Positions 8,771 to 35,434 of a stretch of 36,165 nt of DNA are shown in pieces. This DNA comes from Deltaproteobacteria bacterium (GTDB taxonomy: Bacteria; Myxococcota; Myxococcia; Myxococcales; JAHFDP01). A model generated the notes under the pieces. The model did not search any database and had not been told where the DNA came from. It saw only the letters and a list, made by a program, of their open reading frames with translations. The stretch is taken from assembly GCA_023248955.1 (NCBI GenBank), contig JAHFDP010000043.1, forward strand, positions 1 to 36,165, read 5' to 3'. How positions within the stretch are numbered: position 1 is the stretch's first letter; the number at the start of each line of letters is the position of its first letter. The translations under genes and the position numbers were made by a program.

Positions 8771-9480
8771 CAGGCGGCCTCATCCTCGAAATCATGCCAG
8801 AGCCAGCCGCGCCCATTCGCTTCGTTGCGAAGGAGGGGCCCGATGGCCAGAGAAAATTGAGCGGCCGCGAGCAGCGCGTGATCGCCCGTGGGTGAATCGC
8901 CGACCGCCAAATAGATCGCGGCGCCTCCAGCGCGCGCGGCCAGCGCGTCGACTTTCCCGGCGGCGTAAGAGACCGGCTCAACCGCGCGATCGGTCAAGCG
9001 GCCGCCCAGAACTTCCACGCCAATGCCAATGGCATTCGCCACATCGAAACCCGCGGCGGGCGCAATCGCTTCAATGAGCCATCGATTCGATCCGGAGACG
9101 AGAAAGGTCTTGAGCCCAGCCTTGCGACAAGCGCCGACCAGTGCGCGCATCGGTTTGCGCAGACGCGACTCCCAACGCCGCGCCAAATCGCGTGCGCGAG
9201 TGGCGACTTCGATTTCCGGCAAACCCGCCATGCGCTGCACGGCCCAGAGATAAGCCGCGCGTTTGTCCGCGGCAATGCGCTGTTGGTAGGCTGACCACAG
9301 ATCGCGTTCAGCGCCGGGGAGAAAACGGCCGGCCGCGGCGAGCTCGCGAAAAAATTCGTCACCGAGATCGCCAGGCCAAAGTGTGCCGTCGGCGTCAAAC
9401 GCTGCGATGGCGCCGTGCGGCGCGACCTTGAGGGCTGAATGGAGGGCTTCCGCCACGGCGGGAGAGAAGTCGCTAGACAT
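8770..9480 (-). CDS. HAD-family phosphatase (SerB-like)
   Basis: This 236-residue haloacid-dehalogenase-type hydrolase uses an Asp nucleophile. Motif I is FDADGT with D29 and D31, motif II Ser/Thr is in FLVSGSNRW near residue 135, and motif IV is GDSPTGD near 205. The helical cap between motifs I and II is of the C1 type seen in phosphoserine phosphatase and related phosphatases (PGDLGDEFFRELAAAG onward). The substrate could be phosphoserine or another small phosphoester. I chose ATG 9480, since upstream in-frame sequence belongs to the dispersed repeat. It is translationally coupled to the receiver-PilZ gene by a TGATG overlap. Confidence 0.85.
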   Translation of the reverse strand: MSSDFSPAVAEALHSALKVAPHGAIAAFDADGTLWPGDLGDEFFRELAAAGRFLPGAERDLWSAYQQRIAADKRAAYLWAVQRMAGLPEIEVATRARDLARRWESRLRKPMRALVGACRKAGLKTFLVSGSNRWLIEAIAPAAGFDVANAIGIGVEVLGGRLTDRAVEPVSYAAGKVDALAARAGGAAIYLAVGDSPTGDHALLAAAQFSLAIGPLLRNEANGRGWLWHDFEDEAA

Positions 9481-9527: not shown

Positions 9528-9964
9528 CGCGCTGGCGCTCAGCTTCCTTAGAAAAATTTTGCCTGGGCGGCGGCCGGAGCCCGACGGCGTGACGGATGGG
9601 CCGTTGGGGCCGCGGTGACCGGATGCGTGGAGGAGGTTCGGATTCGGGTGGTAGCAAGTCACCGCGGCCCCAAAGGCCCATCCGTCTGCCGTCGGAGGTT
9701 TGATTTGGGTAGGTCGGACGAGACGCGCTGGGTTGCGAGTTTCAGTGCAGTTTGGAATCGGCCGATCGCCCGCGACGCCGCCAAACGTAGCGCCATCGTT
9801 CCGCCCTGGCCGACGTGATTTTTTTAGAGGATCGATCAGGTTTGGAGTCACGGCGCGGAACGACGGCTGGTTTGGCGACGTCGCGGATTCGTGGGGTGGT
9901 GATCTCGTGGTTAAGAAGGATCGAGCATTTTATCAAGATTCATGATCTTGATATTTCGTCAAGT
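9528..9964 (+). repeat. Dispersed hairpin repeat, copy 2 (full length)
   Basis: This is a near-complete copy of the window's main repeat. In order it has a GCGCTGGCG palindrome and TTAGAAAAATTTTGCC block at 9528-9562, a GC-rich segment, and a long hairpin with arms 9594-9619 and 9658-9683 (26 positions, one mismatch). A unique-looking middle follows (9684-9930). The operator-like palindrome at 9931-9953 has arms TATCAAGAT and ATCTTGATA, and the element ends in TTTCGTCAAGT. Several overlapping frames stay open through the middle in all copies, so a short protein cannot be excluded, but GC-rich DNA has few stops and I do not call a gene. It lies between the HAD gene and the palindromic element at 9979. 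Confidence 0.9.
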
Positions 9965-21039: not shown

Positions 21040-21660
21040 ATGAAGAAGATCAATCGCCCGTCCGGCTTTACGTTGCTCGAGCTGATCGTCGTTGTCGCCA
21101 TCGTGGCCATTCTCGCGGCGGCGTTGACCCCGATCATCTTGAATCAGGTTGAGCGCGCCCGCGTTGCATCTACGCTGAACGGCCTGAACCAGATCGCACT
21201 CGCCATGCAGCGCTTCCGCGTTGACACGGGAAGCTGGCCGAAGGGTTCTGGTACCTGGACGCCGGGATCCGAGAGCGGCGCGGCCGCTGCCTTCGTCTCC
21301 GGCGACACGGCGCTCATCACGAACGGAAACGTGGGTACGATCAACACCTGCACCAGCACGAGCACCACGGCGTGCTGGGGTGGTCCGTACGTGAGCGCCT
21401 CGAAGGACCTCTCCGGGCAGAAGGATTACCTGGGTAACGTCCTGAAGGTCGCTTACGCTGCATCCGGGCAGACCGGCGGGGCAGGCATCGATACGGCGGC
21501 CGGCGAAGGCTTCAGCGCCGCCAGCGGTACTGGCGCGATGGTTGGTGGTACAAACGCGACGGGCGGCATCTACCTCGCGCCTTGCCGTGGAACTGGTTGC
21601 ACCAACTTCATCTCTTCCGCGACGATCGCGGCGGTGGTGGTTTCGAACACCGTGAACTAG
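21040..21660 (+). CDS. Type IV pilin-like major prepilin 1
   Basis: This 206-residue prepilin has leader MKKINRPSG cut before FTLLE, Glu at mature position 5 and the helix LIVVVAIVAILAAALTPIIL. The globular part has CWGGPYVSASKDLSGQKDYLGNVLK, related to the GspG GPY..D.WG motif, and a likely disulphide. It ends ATIAAVVVSNTVN. It is a close paralogue of the pilin at 26879: the first 60 residues and the C-terminal half are nearly identical while residues about 62-100 differ. A good GGAG site, its own promoter and a strong terminator right after it suggest high expression as a monocistronic message, so it is probably a major pilin. Confidence 0.92.
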   Translation: MKKINRPSGFTLLELIVVVAIVAILAAALTPIILNQVERARVASTLNGLNQIALAMQRFRVDTGSWPKGSGTWTPGSESGAAAAFVSGDTALITNGNVGTINTCTSTSTTACWGGPYVSASKDLSGQKDYLGNVLKVAYAASGQTGGAGIDTAAGEGFSAASGTGAMVGGTNATGGIYLAPCRGTGCTNFISSATIAAVVVSNTVN

Positions 21661-21684: not shown

Positions 21685-21717
21685 GGGAGGTCGCCTTTGG
21701 GCGGCCTCCCTTTTTTT
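21685..21717 (+). terminator. Rho-independent terminator of pilin 1
   Basis: An 11-bp stem (GGGAGGTCGCC with GGCGGCCTCCC, one G-T pair) and a short TTTG loop are followed by seven T residues. Confidence 0.93.
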
Positions 21718-21748
21718 GTGGGCAACCGATTCCCCTTAGGAAACAGCC

Positions 21749-23506
21749 GTGCCATTCCCCCCCTCTCCGAAAACCTGGCGCACAAACACTTGGTTTTGTG
21801 GGATCATTCTTGTGGCCGCGGTGGTGCAGTTCGGTCTGCCTCCGCTCTCACGCCAGCTCTTGAACTACGACGATGGCCTCTACGTCGCGCCCCTCCACCA
21901 TCTCTCCTTCAACGACTACTGGACCACGTGGCTGCCGCGAAAAGACCACTACGCCTTTCCACTCCGCGACCTGTCCTACGCGCTTGATTTTGCGCTGTCA
22001 GACGGGTGCGGATTAAATACTTTCTGGCTCACGAATTTCCTCTTCTTTGCCTTGACGCTGTTGGTCTTTCGGCGAGTTCTTCGGCTCGTGCTCCCGAACC
22101 AGGATCGACACCAGCTCTTTCTGCTTGCAGCGGTTGCACTTCATCCGCTGCAAGTCGAAGTGGTGCAGTGGACGTTCATGCGAAAATACACGCTGGTGGC
22201 GCTCTTGATTGCCCACGGAACAGCGGTTGCGTTGCAGGTGGGTCAAACCGATCCGGAACGCGTGCGAAGCCGGAGCTACGTCGAGGTCTTGGTCTGTTAC
22301 ATCGGAAGCCTGCTCTGTTGGCCGGCGGGCGTCCTTTGGATCTTTTGGGCTGCTTTCGAAATGCGCAAGGCCTTGCGCGCCGCGCCGATCAAGGCTGCGG
22401 CATTTGGGGCTGCGACGATGGCGACGCTCGGTGCTTACCTTTGGTTCATCGTCTCGCGCAGCAGCGACTACACACTTGGCGCCACCCGGGTGGCAACGCC
22501 GTCGGCTTGGGGACGCGCTCTCTATTTCGGCTGGCGCGGAGTGGGACGCCTTTTTTACAATTTCTTAATACCGATTCGTTTGGCTGTTCAATACAACGAG
22601 CGCAGCCCGCTAAATGCCATCGGCCTGGCTCTTTTGGCGCTCTGTTTCCTCGCCTTCCTCGTTTCGTTCGCCCGCGACTGGCGCTCCCGTCCGAGCCATG
22701 CGGCTGCGGTGCTCTCCCTCCTCGCGCTCACTGCCTCACTCTTGATCCCTGAGCTCTTTGCAATCGCCACGCATGTGAATTTCGTGGTCGCCGATCATTA
22801 CTGGCATTTACCGCTTCCCTACCTCTTGATGGCAAGTGCACTCTGGCTTGCGCCATTCCTCACTTCCCTCGCGCCTTCGATGCTCTCCGTCGCGGGCGGA
22901 GCGGTCTTGTTCGCTTATTCGATGCTCTCACTTCAAGGGAGCCGTTACTGGGTCGATGATTATTCGCTGCTCACCCGATGTGCAGAGACGGAAGGAGCCG
23001 CGCAATGCCGTGCCTTGGCCATCGAACGGGCTTTCGACCGTGGTGGTTGCGCCTTGGCGGGAGACGCAATTCAATTGGCACGTGATTTTCGGCTTCGCGA
23101 ACCACCCCGCTATTGGTCGCAACTGTCTATCGATTTGCCGCTTTTCGAATCACTCTGCGCTTCCAATTTTCAGGGAACGCTGGATGAGAAAATTCGAAAT
23201 CTGGAAGAAATCAAATCGATGTATGCACCGGCGCCCGCACTCCTCTATGGCGAAGTTTCTTTCTATTTGGACCTTGGCCTGGTCGAGAAGGCCTATACGG
23301 TTGCAACCCGCACCTACTTGAACCCGGAATACGCCTTGGACGGAGTCAGCCGGGAACTCGTCAACATGCTGCGGCGGCAAACGCGCAAGCTCTGCACCAA
23401 GGTATCGCCAGAACTGGCCAATCCGTGCCGGGCACGCGCCGCGGTTTTCGAACGCCGCCTGGATGCATTTCCCGTCGAGTTCGGGCGCGGAGCCTGGGCG
23501 AATTAG
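21749..23506 (+). CDS. TMTC-like integral membrane protein, candidate pilin glycosyltransferase
   Basis: This 585-residue protein has about ten membrane helices. After the first helix comes LNYDDGLYV and then FPLRDLSYALDFAL with LNTFWLTNFLFFALTLLVF. This matches the GT-C-type TMTC/PMT-like proteins, where the acidic pair in the first loop is catalytic and the next segment reads PLxxLSF. The last 170 residues are soluble and helical, possibly degenerate TPRs as in TMTC proteins. A dolichol/polyprenyl-linked sugar would be the donor. TfpW- and PilO-type pilin glycosyltransferases are encoded next to their pilin, and this gene follows a pilin by 90 bp. Start is GTG 21749 with AGGA upstream. Its 3' end is duplicated at 26707-26734. 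Confidence 0.75.
   Translation: MPFPPSPKTWRTNTWFCGIILVAAVVQFGLPPLSRQLLNYDDGLYVAPLHHLSFNDYWTTWLPRKDHYAFPLRDLSYALDFALSDGCGLNTFWLTNFLFFALTLLVFRRVLRLVLPNQDRHQLFLLAAVALHPLQVEVVQWTFMRKYTLVALLIAHGTAVALQVGQTDPERVRSRSYVEVLVCYIGSLLCWPAGVLWIFWAAFEMRKALRAAPIKAAAFGAATMATLGAYLWFIVSRSSDYTLGATRVATPSAWGRALYFGWRGVGRLFYNFLIPIRLAVQYNERSPLNAIGLALLALCFLAFLVSFARDWRSRPSHAAAVLSLLALTASLLIPELFAIATHVNFVVADHYWHLPLPYLLMASALWLAPFLTSLAPSMLSVAGGAVLFAYSMLSLQGSRYWVDDYSLLTRCAETEGAAQCRALAIERAFDRGGCALAGDAIQLARDFRLREPPRYWSQLSIDLPLFESLCASNFQGTLDEKIRNLEEIKSMYAPAPALLYGEVSFYLDLGLVEKAYTVATRTYLNPEYALDGVSRELVNMLRRQTRKLCTKVSPELANPCRARAAVFERRLDAFPVEFGRGAWAN
23478..23505 (+). repeat. 28-bp direct repeat, left copy
   Basis: This segment encodes the last residues EFGRGAWAN of the TMTC-like protein. 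It recurs exactly at 26707-26734, and the two copies bracket the three-gene sugar cassette. Confidence 0.95.
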
Positions 23507-23510
23507 GCAG

Positions 23511-24947
23511 CTAAGGACTTGTTTTTTTGAGCCGATAGACCAGGTAATGCCCCACCGCTGAGCTCGATTCGCCGAAACTAAAATCGTAATTGGCGCGAAT
23601 GACCTCTTGCACCGGGCTGGGCCACCAGCCTGCGGTGCGCATCACCACGAATTCGAATTCGCGTTTCTGAACAGCCCGAGTCAGCGGCGCAGGATCCCAT
23701 CGCCCGCTGTGCTCCAATGCGTTGAAGACGAACGGATCGTCCCACGCGGCCTCCTGTCCGAGACTGATAGGAATGCTCGCATCGTCGGCGAGCACCTTCC
23801 CTCCGCACTTGCGCAACGTCTCAATCAGATTTTCGTACGCTGCCGAATAGACGGGAAGTGTGAGCTGGTAAGCGAGCGGATGGGTACGAACACCATGGGC
23901 CGCCATCAGCGCTACGAACAGCGCAATCGTCGTCTGCTTGCGCCAAGAATCGTCATCCTCCCGCGGCAACGCCTCGGCAACGATGAGACCCAGCGCGGCG
24001 CTCGTATCGAAGAAATACATACTTCCCGATCCGAGCTTGCCGACGGTAGCCAGACCTACCAGCGTGCTGATGAGAAACCAGGGCAGCCCCAGACCGCGTT
24101 TTCCAGAAAGCGAGAGACCGACAGCCACGAGGCAAGCCGCCCAAAACGCGGGGCCGATTTCATGCAAGGTGATGAAGAGAAATTCGTCGAGTTGGATCGG
24201 CAGATGGTTCCCGCCGACGATATTGATCCAGAACCCGCCATTCGTGGCGAGCTGCATGAATCCGCAAAAGAGGCCGAGCGCGAGGCACTGGATACCCAGA
24301 ATCAAGAAGGCCTGGCGCCATTCGCGACGCGTGCCGCTGTCGTAGAGGAGAATTAAAGTCAGCGTGGCCAGCTCAGTCTGTTTCGACAGGACAGCAAGCA
24401 CGGCGAAGAGGCTCACAACGAGGACGCGCCGCGGGCCAGGGGCGAGCTTGCGCTGCGTGAGCAGAGCCGCCAGCGAGAAGAGCGTGGCAAAGGCGTCCGG
24501 GCTGCGGCACACGTGCGACCAGAGGAAGACCGGTTGCGCCACGAGAAAAACAGCGGGCGCTACGAGCGCGGCCAATATTGAATGGCGTGCGTCGAAGCGG
24601 ATGTAGAACGCCAAGAGCGCGGCGCAACCAATTGTCGCGAAGAGGTTAATCGCGCGGAGCGGCCAGAAAGCCCCGGGCGCGAGGGTCGACGCGGCGTAGG
24701 AGGCCCAGTAACTCAACGGGGTGTGCGTCAAAATGTTCAGCGGCAACTTGTCCAGTGCTTCCCTTTGATAGAGCCGTCCGTGCCGAATGGCGTCGAGGAA
24801 ACCAAACACGATGCCGTCCGCGAAAATGGGTGCGGTCGCGCGCAGCGATTGGATCGTCATCCAGGCGTAGGAAAAAAAAGACGCCACGATAAACGCGGCC
24901 AGCGCCGTGACCGTCAACGCGCGGATGGTGATAAAGTGTCGCGCCAT
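23511..24947 (-). CDS. GT-C-type membrane glycosyltransferase
   Basis: This 478-residue protein has about ten membrane segments. The first outer loop has FADGIVFGFLDAIRHGRLYQ, then PLNILTHTPLSYW, which fits the ArnT/PMT-like GT-C superfamily with an acidic residue at the start of the loop. Such enzymes use polyprenyl-phosphate sugars, matching the GT2 enzyme encoded nearby that may make them. The C-terminal 120 residues form a soluble domain on the outer side. I chose ATG 24947 (MARHFITIRA); a GTG two codons earlier is possible. The start codon overlaps the start codon of the divergent epimerase gene, so each promoter must lie inside the other's coding region. Confidence 0.78.
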   Translation of the reverse strand: MARHFITIRALTVTALAAFIVASFFSYAWMTIQSLRATAPIFADGIVFGFLDAIRHGRLYQREALDKLPLNILTHTPLSYWASYAASTLAPGAFWPLRAINLFATIGCAALLAFYIRFDARHSILAALVAPAVFLVAQPVFLWSHVCRSPDAFATLFSLAALLTQRKLAPGPRRVLVVSLFAVLAVLSKQTELATLTLILLYDSGTRREWRQAFLILGIQCLALGLFCGFMQLATNGGFWINIVGGNHLPIQLDEFLFITLHEIGPAFWAACLVAVGLSLSGKRGLGLPWFLISTLVGLATVGKLGSGSMYFFDTSAALGLIVAEALPREDDDSWRKQTTIALFVALMAAHGVRTHPLAYQLTLPVYSAAYENLIETLRKCGGKVLADDASIPISLGQEAAWDDPFVFNALEHSGRWDPAPLTRAVQKREFEFVVMRTAGWWPSPVQEVIRANYDFSFGESSSAVGHYLVYRLKKTSP

Positions 24948-25980
24948 GAACACCTCGATCTCTGCTTATACTGGAATGCCGGTCCTCGTCACGGGCGGCG
25001 CATCGTTCATCGGCAGCCATCTGTGCGAATCGCTGGTGAGCGCCGGTGCGCGCGTCAGGGTGGCCGACGATCTCTCAAGCGGAAAGGTCGACAACCTCGC
25101 TACCGTGCGCGAAAAAATCGATTTCCGTGAGGGCGATCTGCGCGATGCGACCTTCGCGCGCGCGGCCGCACGCGGCCAGGAGATTATTTTCCATCTCGCC
25201 GCGATGCACGGCGGACGCGGCTACATCGAGACGCACCCCGTCGAGTGCATGAACAACATGCTGCTCGACCACACTGTCTTTGCCGAAGGCGCGCGCGCCG
25301 GCGTGCGCAAGATCGTCCACGCCAGCTCGGCCTGCGTCTATCCGACCAACCTACAGACGGAGCGCGACCGGCTTCTGCTCAAAGAATCGGATGCGGGATT
25401 CGCCGAACCTGGCCGCGCCTTCGCGGACGGCGAATATGGTTGGGCCAAGCTGATGGGCGAAATGCAGCTTCGCGCCTTCCACAAACAGTATGGAATCGAC
25501 GCGGTGGCCTGCCGCATCTTTACCGCGTACGGCGAGCGTGAAAACGAGAGCCACGCGGTGATTGCGCTCATCGCCAAGGCTTTGGCGCGGCTCGATCCAT
25601 TTCCAATTTGGGGCAACGGCAAACAGACGCGCAACTTCACCTACGTCGGCGACACGGTGAAGGGGATGGTCCTGGCCGGCGCAACACTGAGTGGATTTTC
25701 ACCCGTCAACGTGGGGTCGGCCACGCACCACACCGTGCTCGATTTGTGCGAGGAGATTTTTTCAACGCTGCGCTGGCGGCCGCGACAACTCGATTTTCAG
25801 CTCGACAAACCGGTTGGTGTGGGAAGCCGCGCGTCGGACAACGCGTTTTGCAAGCAGGCCTTGGGCTGGGAGCCGTCGGTTTCGCTTTCTGAGGGCATCG
25901 GGCGAACCGCGCGTTGGTATGTGGAAGCAAACCGTGGGGGCACGCCGACCGATCTTCAGCGACGGCTGATGGAGCGCTAA
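24946..25980 (+). CDS. NAD-dependent sugar epimerase, GDP-mannose 3,5-epimerase-like
   Basis: This 344-residue extended short-chain dehydrogenase acts on a nucleotide sugar. The Rossmann motif is VTGGASFIGSHL, the catalytic set is SSACVYP plus YGWAK (Tyr-x-x-x-Lys), and a C-terminal substrate domain has GKQTRNFTYVGDTVKG. The segments SSACVYP, LLLKESDAGFAEP and the GGRGYIETHP loop resemble plant-type GDP-mannose 3,5-epimerases more than GalE. The start may be ATG 24946 or ATG 24976 (MPVLVTGG), the second preceded by TATACT at 24967. It is followed at 2 bp by the GT2 gene, so the two are in one message. It likely supplies an activated sugar to the two transferases. Confidence 0.85.
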   Translation: MNTSISAYTGMPVLVTGGASFIGSHLCESLVSAGARVRVADDLSSGKVDNLATVREKIDFREGDLRDATFARAAARGQEIIFHLAAMHGGRGYIETHPVECMNNMLLDHTVFAEGARAGVRKIVHASSACVYPTNLQTERDRLLLKESDAGFAEPGRAFADGEYGWAKLMGEMQLRAFHKQYGIDAVACRIFTAYGERENESHAVIALIAKALARLDPFPIWGNGKQTRNFTYVGDTVKGMVLAGATLSGFSPVNVGSATHHTVLDLCEEIFSTLRWRPRQLDFQLDKPVGVGSRASDNAFCKQALGWEPSVSLSEGIGRTARWYVEANRGGTPTDLQRRLMER

Positions 25981-25982
25981 AA

Positions 25983-26696
25983 ATGACAAAGCCGCGCATC
26001 GATCTCGTGCTTCCGGTTCACAACGAGGGCGCCTCCATCGCGGCCACGCTGGAGGAGTTTTACGCCACCGCTACGGCGCAAGCGCCCGTCGATTTGCGTT
26101 TCGTGATTTGCGAGGATGGCTCGAAGGACAACACCGTCGAAGTGATCCAAGCCCTCGCGGCCAAGCTGCCCATCTTGCTGCTCACGACGAAGGCGCGAAA
26201 AGGCTACTCGCGCGCGGTTATCGATGGGTTTAGATCCACCACGGCTGATATCATCGCCTTTATCGATTCCGACGGACAGTGCGACCCCGGCGATTTTCAC
26301 CGTTTCTGGGAAACGTTGGCCGATAACGATTTTGTGATTGGCTACCGCAATCCGCGTTCCGATCCTTGGATTCGGATCCTGATGTCACGTTCTTTTGGGT
26401 TCGTCTATCGCCGTCTCTTTGACGTGCGCACCAAGGACCCATCCTGTCCCTACTTGCTCATTCGGCGCCCCGCGCTGGAGCGCATTCTCCAAGGAAATGT
26501 GGGCGTTCTGAAACAGGGGTTTTGGTGGGAGTTTCTTGCTCGCGCTAAAGCCACGGGCGCCCGCCTCACGGAGATTCCTGTCCGGCACAGACCGCGCGCG
26601 GCAGGCACCACTCAGGTTTACCGGGTGGGCGCGGTTCCGCGCATTGCGGTCGAACATCTGCGGGGGCTCTTCACTCTGAAGCGTGAGTTGAGCTAG
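25983..26696 (+). CDS. GT2-family glycosyltransferase (polyprenyl-phosphate sugar synthase-like)
   Basis: This 237-residue GT-A enzyme starts MTKPRIDLVLPVHNEGASI, has ICEDGSKDNT for nucleotide binding and IAFIDSDGQCDPGDF, the DxD metal site plus the D-G-Q-x-D/P motif of DPM1/ArnC-like synthases. It has no C-terminal membrane helices, as in DPM1. The likely reaction is transfer of a sugar from a nucleotide sugar to a polyprenyl phosphate on the inner leaflet, giving the donor used by GT-C enzymes. The product would feed the transferase at 23511 or the TMTC-like protein. It is 2 bp after the epimerase gene. The right copy of the 28-bp repeat follows. Confidence 0.88.
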   Translation: MTKPRIDLVLPVHNEGASIAATLEEFYATATAQAPVDLRFVICEDGSKDNTVEVIQALAAKLPILLLTTKARKGYSRAVIDGFRSTTADIIAFIDSDGQCDPGDFHRFWETLADNDFVIGYRNPRSDPWIRILMSRSFGFVYRRLFDVRTKDPSCPYLLIRRPALERILQGNVGVLKQGFWWEFLARAKATGARLTEIPVRHRPRAAGTTQVYRVGAVPRIAVEHLRGLFTLKRELS

Positions 26697-26706
26697 GACG
26701 TGTCCT

Positions 26707-26734
26707 AGTTCGGGCGCGGAGCCTGGGCGAATTA
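26707..26734 (+). repeat. 28-bp direct repeat, right copy
   Basis: This is an exact copy of 23478-23505, the 3' end of the TMTC-like gene, now lying after the GT2 gene and directly before a terminator. Confidence 0.95.
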
Positions 26735-26740
26735 AGCCGC

Positions 26741-26771
26741 GGTCGCCTTCGGGCGGCCCCCCCCCTTTTTT
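26741..26771 (+). terminator. Rho-independent terminator before pilin 2
   Basis: Arms GGTCGCC and GGCGGCC with a TTCG loop are followed by a C run and six T residues. The stem resembles that of the terminator at 21685. A second possible stem forms between the C9 run (26757-26765) and the G8 run (26772-26779). Confidence 0.75.
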
Positions 26772-26780
26772 GGGGGGGGT

Positions 26781-26856
26781 ACCGTTAACTAATTCACACA
26801 TAAATTTGGTTCCAGGGGGGGGGGGGCTGTTAAACTACAGGCGACCCCAACCCCCC
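26781..26856 (+). repeat. Duplicated pilin 3' end and terminator, upstream of pilin 2
   Basis: The segment starting ACCGTTAACTAATTCACACA repeats the stop-codon region and hairpin found after pilin 2 at 27509-27576. In this copy the hairpin's left arm has become a G12 run (26815-26826). It looks like the scar of a lost pilin gene copy. Confidence 0.85.
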
Positions 26857-26878: not shown

Positions 26879-27520
26879 ATGAAGAAGGCCAACCGTCCCT
26901 CTGGCTTTACATTGCTCGAACTGATCGTTGTCGTCGCTATCGTGGCCATTCTGGCCGCGGCGCTGACCCCGATCATCTTGAACCAGGTTGAGCGCGCCCG
27001 CGTGGCTTCCACGGTGAATGGGCTCAATCAAATTGCGCTCGGTATGCAACGCTTCCGCGTGGACACGGGAAGGTGGCCTTTCAATAACATCCTCTGGGCT
27101 CCAGGCACGGAAAGCGGCGAAGCCCAGGCGTTCGGCAACTTGTCCACCGCGCTCATCACGAACCCGAGCCCCGGTGTCACGCCCACCTGCACCAGCACCA
27201 GCACCACCGCTTGCTGGGGTGGTCCATATGTCAGCGCCTCGAAAGACCTCTCCGGGCAAAAGGACTACCTGGGTAACGTCCTGAAAGCCGCCTACGCCGC
27301 CGCGGGCCAGGTTGGTGGAGCCTCCGTTGCGGCGGGCGCCGGCTTCGGCGACAACGCCGCCTCGGAAGGCTTCAGCGCCGCTAGCGGTACTGGCGCGATG
27401 GTTGGCGGTACAAACGCGACGGGCGGTATCTACTTGGCGCCGTGCCGAAGCGGCGGTTGCCCGAACTTCATCCCCTCTTCGGTAGTCGCCGCGGTCGTCG
27501 TTTCGAACACCGTTAACTAA
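26879..27520 (+). CDS. Type IV pilin-like major prepilin 2
   Basis: This 213-residue prepilin has leader MKKANRPSG cut before FTLLE, Glu at mature position 5 and a helix identical to that of the pilin at 21040. It shares CWGGPYVSASKDLSGQKDYLGNVLK and the GTGAMVGGTNATGGIYLAPC block with that paralogue. It differs in residues about 62-100 and in an Ala/Gly-rich insert (QVGGASVAAGAGFGDNAAS). A GGAG ribosome site precedes the ATG. It is followed by a strong terminator and then by the pilB gene, so it may be the dominant pilin of the machine downstream. Confidence 0.92.
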   Translation: MKKANRPSGFTLLELIVVVAIVAILAAALTPIILNQVERARVASTVNGLNQIALGMQRFRVDTGRWPFNNILWAPGTESGEAQAFGNLSTALITNPSPGVTPTCTSTSTTACWGGPYVSASKDLSGQKDYLGNVLKAAYAAAGQVGGASVAAGAGFGDNAASEGFSAASGTGAMVGGTNATGGIYLAPCRSGGCPNFIPSSVVAAVVVSNTVN

Positions 27521-27542
27521 TTCACACAGAAATTCGGTCCAA

Positions 27543-27585
27543 GGGGGGTCGCCTGTTACACTACGGGCGACCCCCCGATGTTTTT
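27543..27585 (+). terminator. Rho-independent terminator of pilin 2
   Basis: A perfect 11-bp stem (GGGGGGTCGCC, 27543-27553, with GGCGACCCCCC, 27566-27576) is followed by GATG and five T residues. It separates the pilin from pilB. Confidence 0.85.
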
Positions 27586-32380: not shown

Positions 32381-32718
32381 CGCGCTGGCGCGACCGGCTT
32401 CCTTAGAAAAAATTTGCCTGGGCGGCGGCCGGAGCCCGTCTGCCGTCGGAGGTTTGATTTGGGTAGGGCGGGAGAGACGTACGGTGGTGGAGATTTCAGT
32501 GCAGAGGACTTTCGGCCGATCGCCCGCGACGCCGCCAAACGTAGCGCCGTCGTTCCGCCCTGGCCGACGGGATTTTTTTAGAGGATCGATCAGGTTTGGA
32601 GTCACGGCGCGGAACGACGGCTGGTTTGGCGACGTCGCGGATTCGTGGGGTGGTGATCGCGTGGTTGAGGGGGAGCAAGCATTTTATCAAGATTCGCGAT
32701 CTTGATATTTCGTCAAGT
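32381..32718 (+). repeat. Dispersed hairpin repeat, copy 3 (hairpin missing)
   Basis: This copy starts 4 bp after the pilMN stop. It matches copy 2 throughout, except that the 101 bp corresponding to 9583-9683 are absent. The join reads GGAGCCC directly to GTCTGCCGTCGG. The operator-like palindrome is at 32685-32707 with arms TATCAAGAT and ATCTTGATA and spacer TCGCG. It is in the opposite orientation to copy 4. Confidence 0.92.
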
Positions 32719-32804
32719 AACGTTTCATTGCTTCGAGTGCCCAAACCAATCGGTTGCACCATCGCATCGAGCGGCTGGGCGCGGCGCAGGAGAGGAAGGC
32801 ATGA

Positions 32805-33293: not shown

Positions 33294-33335
33294 CAATGCG
33301 AGCCCTGGGCTGGCAATCGATAGCGGCGAATCCCT

Positions 33336-33774
33336 ACTTGACGAAATATCAAGATCACGAATCTTGATAAAATGCTCGAGCCCGTACAACCACGAGAGCT
33401 CCACCCCACGAATCCGCGACGTCGCCAAACCAGCCGTCGTTCCGCGCCGTGACTCCAAACCTGATCGATCCTCTAAAAAAATCACGTCGGCCAGGGCGGA
33501 ACGATGGCGCTACGTTTGGCGGCGTCGCGGGCGATCGGCCGAAATTTCACTGCACTGAACTCTGCACCACCGTGCGTCTCTCCCGACCTACCCAAATCAA
33601 ACCTCCGACGGCAGACGGATGGGCCGTTGGGGCCGCGGTGACTTGCTACCACCCGAATCCGAACCTCCTCCACGCATCCGGTCACCGCGGCCCCAACGGC
33701 CCATCCGTCACGCCGTCGGGCTCCGGCCGCCGCCTAGGCAAAATTTTTCTAAAAAAGCTTGGCGCGCCAGCGCG
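33336..33774 (-). repeat. Dispersed hairpin repeat, copy 4 (full length)
   Basis: This full copy is inverted relative to copy 3. Its palindrome is at 33347-33369 (arms TATCAAGAT and ATCTTGATA, spacer CACGA). The long hairpin has arms 33618-33643 and 33682-33707, which pair perfectly over 26 bp. It ends 43 bp before the pilO GTG. It supplies the sequence immediately upstream of the toxin-remnant operator and may separate pilO from its old promoter. Confidence 0.92.
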
Positions 33775-35226: not shown

Positions 35227-35272
35227 GTGATTTCACTACCGGCGTATCCCTCTGATGACCGTCAGACAGCGA

Positions 35273-35434
35273 TCACGGAGGAGCCAGCTCCGCTGGTGAC
35301 GGGCGGAGCGCGAAGGCGCGGAGCAATGACGGAGGAGCCAGCTCCGCTGGTGACGGGCGGAGCGCGAAGGCGCGGAGCAATGACGGAGGAGCCAGCTCCG
35401 CTGGTGACGGGCGGAGCGCGAAGGCGCGGAGCAA
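35273..35434 (+). repeat. Tandem repeat, 3 x 54 bp, between pilP and pilQ
   Basis: Three head-to-tail units (35273-35326, 35327-35380, 35381-35434) are identical apart from one base in the first. Each unit contains small inverted repeats (GGAGC/GCTCC and GCGC-type). No frame on either strand looks like a protein. It lies in the transcribed gap before pilQ, so it would form repeated hairpins in the operon mRNA. Confidence 0.97.

Follow-up and report, generated by a model that had tools for sequence, protein, structure and literature searches.

Two pilin genes of a myxococcal bacterium are separated by a set of putative glycosylation genes, three of which are enclosed by an exact direct repeat of 28 bp. 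How did this three-gene block come to lie there, and is it able to leave again? The stretch of DNA analysed here, referred to as the window, comprises positions 1 to 36,165 (forward strand) of contig JAHFDP010000043.1 of assembly GCA_023248955.1. The repeat is read as a leftover of past gene shuffling beside the pilin gene pair; in our judgement the chances are about even that it is the scar of a recombination event by which the block was inserted.

Gene content of the pilin locus

The left border of the region is formed by pil1 (21040..21660, plus strand), encoding a prepilin or GspG-like pseudopilin with matches to N_methyl (PF07963) and TIGR02532/TIGR01710, and the right border by pil2 (26879..27520, plus strand), encoding a protein of the same kind with profile matches and 82% amino acid identity to the pil1 product. 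Downstream of pil2 a gene for a PilB/GspE-type ATPase and two further assembly-like genes, the latter judged by eye, were found. On sequence grounds the locus is a predicted pilus or secretion gene set.

Between the pilin genes, a TMTC-like gene (21749..23506, plus strand; hereafter TMTC) encodes a multi-helix membrane protein of 585 residues with a helical C-terminal domain, a putative GT-C glycosyltransferase with paralogues on two further contigs of the assembly, C55 and C74. Profile searches against Pfam and NCBIfam gave no match for this protein, and its structure prediction, which reached usable confidence in the helical C-terminal part only, was too poor for a fold search. The adjacent gene GTC (23511 to 24947 or 24953, minus strand) is convergent with TMTC, the two stop codons being 4 bp apart. 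It is present as a single copy in the genome and encodes another multi-helix membrane protein and putative GT-C glycosyltransferase, with a weak DUF2142 match and a structure model of low confidence that was likewise too poor for a fold search. The block is completed by epi (24946..25980, plus strand), encoding an NAD-dependent epimerase/dehydratase of the SDR type (PF01370, E=5e-43), and by GT2 (25983..26696, plus strand), encoding a polyprenyl-phosphate-sugar-synthase-like protein (PF00535). The best PDB match of GT2 was dolichol monophosphate mannose synthase (5mlz, E=1.3e-12), followed by ArnC (9hwj, E=9.5e-12); its predicted catalytic domain is related to polyprenyl-phosphate sugar synthases of the DPMS/ArnC type, with a putative product.

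The 28-bp direct repeat

The sequence AGTTCGGGCGCGGAGCCTGGGCGAATTA is present as an exact direct repeat at 23478..23505 and 26707..26734 (both plus strand), with 28 of 28 positions identical and the copies 3229 bp apart. The similarity of the two copies reaches 34 nt, of which 32 are identical and two are mismatches (23478-23511 and 26707-26740). Given the size and composition of the window, about 6e-8 identical pairs of at least 28 bp would be expected by chance. Searching the whole 3.83-Mb, 116-contig assembly with up to 3 mismatches yielded these two copies only, and the 28-mer had no match in viral contigs. Exactly three genes lie between the copies, namely GTC on the minus strand, epi and GT2. 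The repeat around three sugar genes reported in the initial annotation is therefore confirmed as exact, unique in the assembly and not due to chance.

Copy 1 consists of the last codons of TMTC and encodes the C-terminus VEFGRGAWAN*. Because its V..WA pattern aligns with the C55 paralogue, it is regarded as the genuine end of the gene. Copy 2 starts ten bases past the GT2 stop codon and is continued by AATTAAGCCG (TAAGCCG), which is also found at the TMTC stop codon on C74 and is absent after copy 1. Since this continuation is shared with C74, copy 2 appears to be a displaced TMTC 3′ end that keeps the older context, in agreement with the earlier proposal that the last TMTC codons recur at the original end of the gene.

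Related gene sets in the same genome

A second set of these genes is located on C55 in the order hemG (minus strand)-epi-GT2-TMTC-thrS, where GT2 is directly followed by TMTC with overlapping stop and start codons. The amino acid identities between window and C55 are 78% for epi, 84% for GT2 and 44% for TMTC. At fourfold sites the mismatch is 0.43 for epi, 0.54 for GT2 and 0.69-0.75 for TMTC, the last value being saturated (saturation 0.71); for pil1 and pil2 it is 0.43. As the divergence of TMTC is saturated and that of epi and GT2 is younger, the TMTC gene of the window looks like an independent resident that was not copied together with epi and GT2. Synonymous differences are less frequent in the centre of epi than towards its ends. 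Gene conversion could therefore give epi and GT2 too young an appearance, and the argument from the age of TMTC is suggestive only. Either the GTC-epi-GT2 block would have to have been separate from C55 long before the junction event, or it would have to have been rearranged in place recently. The repeat, identical at 28 of 28 positions as against 43-54% fourfold-site mismatch in epi and GT2, is younger than the paralogue split and confined to the junction, as a scar would be. Copy 2 is identical over 28 bp though non-coding, which argues for a junction far younger than the split of epi and GT2. A comparison of base composition, which had been proposed as a check, showed the block with a GC content of 0.59-0.62 to be no more foreign than TMTC with 0.58.

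The homology between window and C55 extends 28 bp upstream of epi (epi leader, 24918..24945, no strand assigned), reaching the beginning of hemG on C55 and the first codons of GTC in the window. None of 5000 shuffles and none of 5158 window 28-mers scored as high as the anchored leader alignment. GTC was therefore probably joined to a leader that had come along with epi. The first nine or so codons of GTC overlap this leader (24918-24947). On C55 the leader forms the beginning of the protoporphyrinogen oxidase gene, so that a gene start has apparently been built on the leader of another gene.

A third gene of the TMTC family (L011 on C74, 9871-10215) has lost its body in frame, with 114 codons left and both the N- and the C-terminal ends kept. 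Additionally, a MITE-like element of about 190 bp with the terminal inverted repeat (TIR) AGTGTCCYGTCNCAGAANTTCG was observed between epi and GT2 on C55 (L010, about 9270-9462); relatives of it are located on C23, C50, C53 and C77.

Nested repeats between GT2 and pil2

Three gene 3′ ends that lack their bodies follow one another in the spacer between GT2 and pil2: the TMTC tail, then duplicates of the pil1 terminator and of the pil2 3′ end. The terminator-like sequence of pil1 (21689..21722, plus strand) and its copy (26741..26776, plus strand), which was recognised by folding and alignment, form the left and right copies of an outer direct repeat with 30 of 36 positions identical (alignment score 41, shuffle maximum 20). 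The 18-nt stem GGTCGCCTTYGGGCGGCC of this terminator occurs exactly at these two sites only in the genome, with a single further match at one mismatch. The right copy folds as two adjacent hairpins, and a run of C instead of T after the first stem leaves it without a canonical terminator score. The terminator that had been placed directly after copy 2 is thus real in so far as these hairpins copy that of pil1, but it did not score as a canonical one. The copy of the pilin 3′ end (26781..26848, plus strand) comprises the last 4 codons, the UTR and the terminator and matches the 3′ end and terminator of pil2 (27509..27574, plus strand; terminator scan and alignment) at 58 of 68 positions; this sequence is found at these two places only in the genome. 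Long runs of C and G were observed at 26741-26848 between the two copied ends.

Several direct repeats are thereby nested: the terminator pair lies around TMTC to GT2, the 28-bp pair around GTC-epi-GT2, the pilin tails around pil2, and pil1 and pil2 around the rest. Of these, the 28-bp pair lies furthest inside and has been preserved best (28/28, or 32/34, compared with 58/68 for the pilin tail and 30/36 for the outer terminator). As the inner pair is best preserved and the outer terminator is older, the age order of the repeats fits the nesting. We regard the 28-bp repeat as an ordinary, well-preserved rearrangement scar in a pilin locus with an unusual number of scars. The initial annotation overlooked both the other two duplicated 3′ ends of the spacer and the TMTC gene after GT2 on C55.

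Searches for relatives and for traces of mobile elements

A search of genome contigs with the TMTC protein found no relative, a search of plasmids gave no match, and two sets of related genomes, first 60 and then 384, contained no more than weak homologues outside its own genome. For GTC only matches of 22-23% were obtained, in distant genomes. A scan of genome contigs with epi returned distant homologues only, mainly archaeal. In the Bathyarchaeota locus L039 epi (45% amino acid identity) is followed by GT2 (34-36%) in the same order as in the window, but no TMTC or GTC match was found beside them. The occurrence of epi followed by GT2 in such a distant archaeal locus suggests that the pair is old.

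The ends of the insert carry no terminal inverted repeats, the only match being one of 9 bp at chance level, and no transposase was found in the insert, which holds GTC, the SDR gene and GT2 only. No site-specific recombinase or integrase is encoded within the three-gene block. A direct 14-nt similarity at the insert ends, AGCTA(A)GGAC(T/G)TGT, was too short to be used. The palindrome CTAGGACGTGTCCTAG (26693-26708) resembles a footprint of the MITE-like family of about 190 bp (TIR AGTGTCCYGTC...), of which no copy is present in the window. The view of the block as an insertion that duplicated its target thus holds in the sense of a later arrival or rearrangement, but not in that of transposition, given the lack of TIRs, transposase and integrase and of any genome-wide use of the repeat as a site.

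Origin of the repeat

From these data we infer both an insertion, rather than a deletion, and a recombination mechanism. In the reading that we favour, and to which we give roughly an even chance, a TMTC-like gene already lay between the two pilin genes when GTC-epi-GT2 arrived and was fused to its 3′ end; by the duplication of about 28-34 bp of its end the gene would have stayed whole, and the older end with its terminator would have come to lie behind GT2, cut off from its gene. Exactly this product would result from one cross-over of the chromosome with a circular or tandem DNA that held a short piece of the TMTC end, and template switching would likewise yield it. The duplication of the pil1 terminator around TMTC to GT2 and that of the pilin tail around pil2 would be older events. 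The duplication of part of a homologous target by a single cross-over has been documented with small DNA circles, with lengths of 109-950 bp (PMC3240628). Such Campbell-type insertion, seen there alongside homology-facilitated illegitimate recombination, likewise leaves a block bracketed by a direct target duplication and the target gene whole on one side (PMC3240628); the duplication in the window is shorter, with 28-34 bp, and its donor and empty site are postulated.

A less probable, though still plausible, history starts from the gene order on C55. Copy 2 would be the remains of a second TMTC gene after GT2; TMTC would have been copied or moved to the front beside pil1, and the distal body would have been lost except for the last 28 bp and the terminator. 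The TMTC end behind GT2 is thereby explained without coincidence. The order epi-GT2-TMTC with overlapping GT2 and TMTC on C55, the C74 gene that kept its 3′ end after losing its body in frame, and the pilin body lost just downstream, of which only the tail remains, point in the same direction, and the case for an insertion is weakened since deletion of a second TMTC body after GT2 would leave the same end. However, this history needs more events, namely a duplication or move plus a deletion. Moreover, the TMTC genes of window and C55 are older relatives than the epi and GT2 genes are, and an alignment upstream of the window TMTC found no GT2 remnant, as an origin from GT2-TMTC might leave. Four points favour insertion: a single event suffices; the ages of the repeats agree with the order in which they are nested; the two TMTC genes seem to have diverged earlier than the epi and GT2 pairs; and TMTC is preceded by no GT2 remnant.

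That the 28-bp copies still recombine, removing GTC-epi-GT2 and switching the pilus sugar, is very unlikely. The direct repeats have the right orientation and bracket a functionally coherent block, and after excision TMTC would still be intact and followed by its terminator. However, the block holds no recombinase, the repeat is found nowhere else in the genome, and for RecA-dependent recombination a length of 28 bp is short. Judged by its genes, the block does not appear to be self-mobile, and recombination between the copies could at most lead to its occasional loss; the cassette able to leave that had been envisaged is not borne out. A switch of the sugar type is also unlikely, since the paralogous epi-GT2-TMTC set persists on C55 and loss of the block need not change the available sugar. 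Slightly less probable again is that the repeats are attL and attR of an integrase targeting the TMTC 3′ end. Integration into a gene 3′ end that restores the gene and displaces the old end is the usual att anatomy. As in such genomic islands, the 28-bp direct repeat derives from a gene 3′ end, which is restored on one side and, in its old form, displaced to the other. The block differs from them in having no integrase among its three genes and a tiny insert of only 3.2 kb; a third copy that would mark a recurrent site is lacking in the genome, and the neighbouring tail duplications differ in sequence. The least probable explanation is an artificial junction of two unrelated places through a common 28-mer. 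Short shared words can mislead assemblers and the draft consists of 116 contigs, but the convergent stop codons 4 bp apart, the coherent gene content, the matches of the paralogous leader and the further nested repeats, which are independent of the 28-mer, argue against it.

On a wider scale, the pilin locus might grow through a series of insertions at gene 3′ ends that keep the genes intact and strand the old ends (pilin tail, pil1 terminator, TMTC tail) behind new genes. Such locus-specific accretion, as opposed to three unrelated accidents, is considered rather improbable. Should the stacked 3′ ends stem from a process that recurs, this would make the locus a useful model for the acquisition of accessory pilin-glycosylation genes that leaves the residents intact.

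Proposed function of the locus

By family membership, the SDR protein would produce or alter a nucleotide sugar, which GT2 would attach to a lipid carrier; its transfer outside the membrane would then fall to TMTC and GTC. With pilin genes as neighbours, the pilins are putative acceptors and pilin glycosylation is plausible. TfpW is a pilin-linked GT-C glycosyltransferase of Pseudomonas aeruginosa group IV pilins (PMC11841053). In both cases putative GT-C membrane enzymes lie beside pilin genes and a lipid-carrier sugar supply is implied; the likeness noted is one of gene context, and the pilins of the window are GspG-like and accompanied by a PilB/GspE-type ATPase. The repeat would show how a lipid-linked glycosylation set came to lie beside the pilin gene pair, and it provides a precise, testable junction.

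Other repeats in the window

An intergenic element was observed in both orientations at 1-152, 9535-9964, 32381-32726 and 33328-33774, the copies being 86-95% alike and containing a 29-nt inverted repeat around a 38-nt loop. Furthermore, a 54-bp unit is present in three near-identical tandem copies at 35268-35434.
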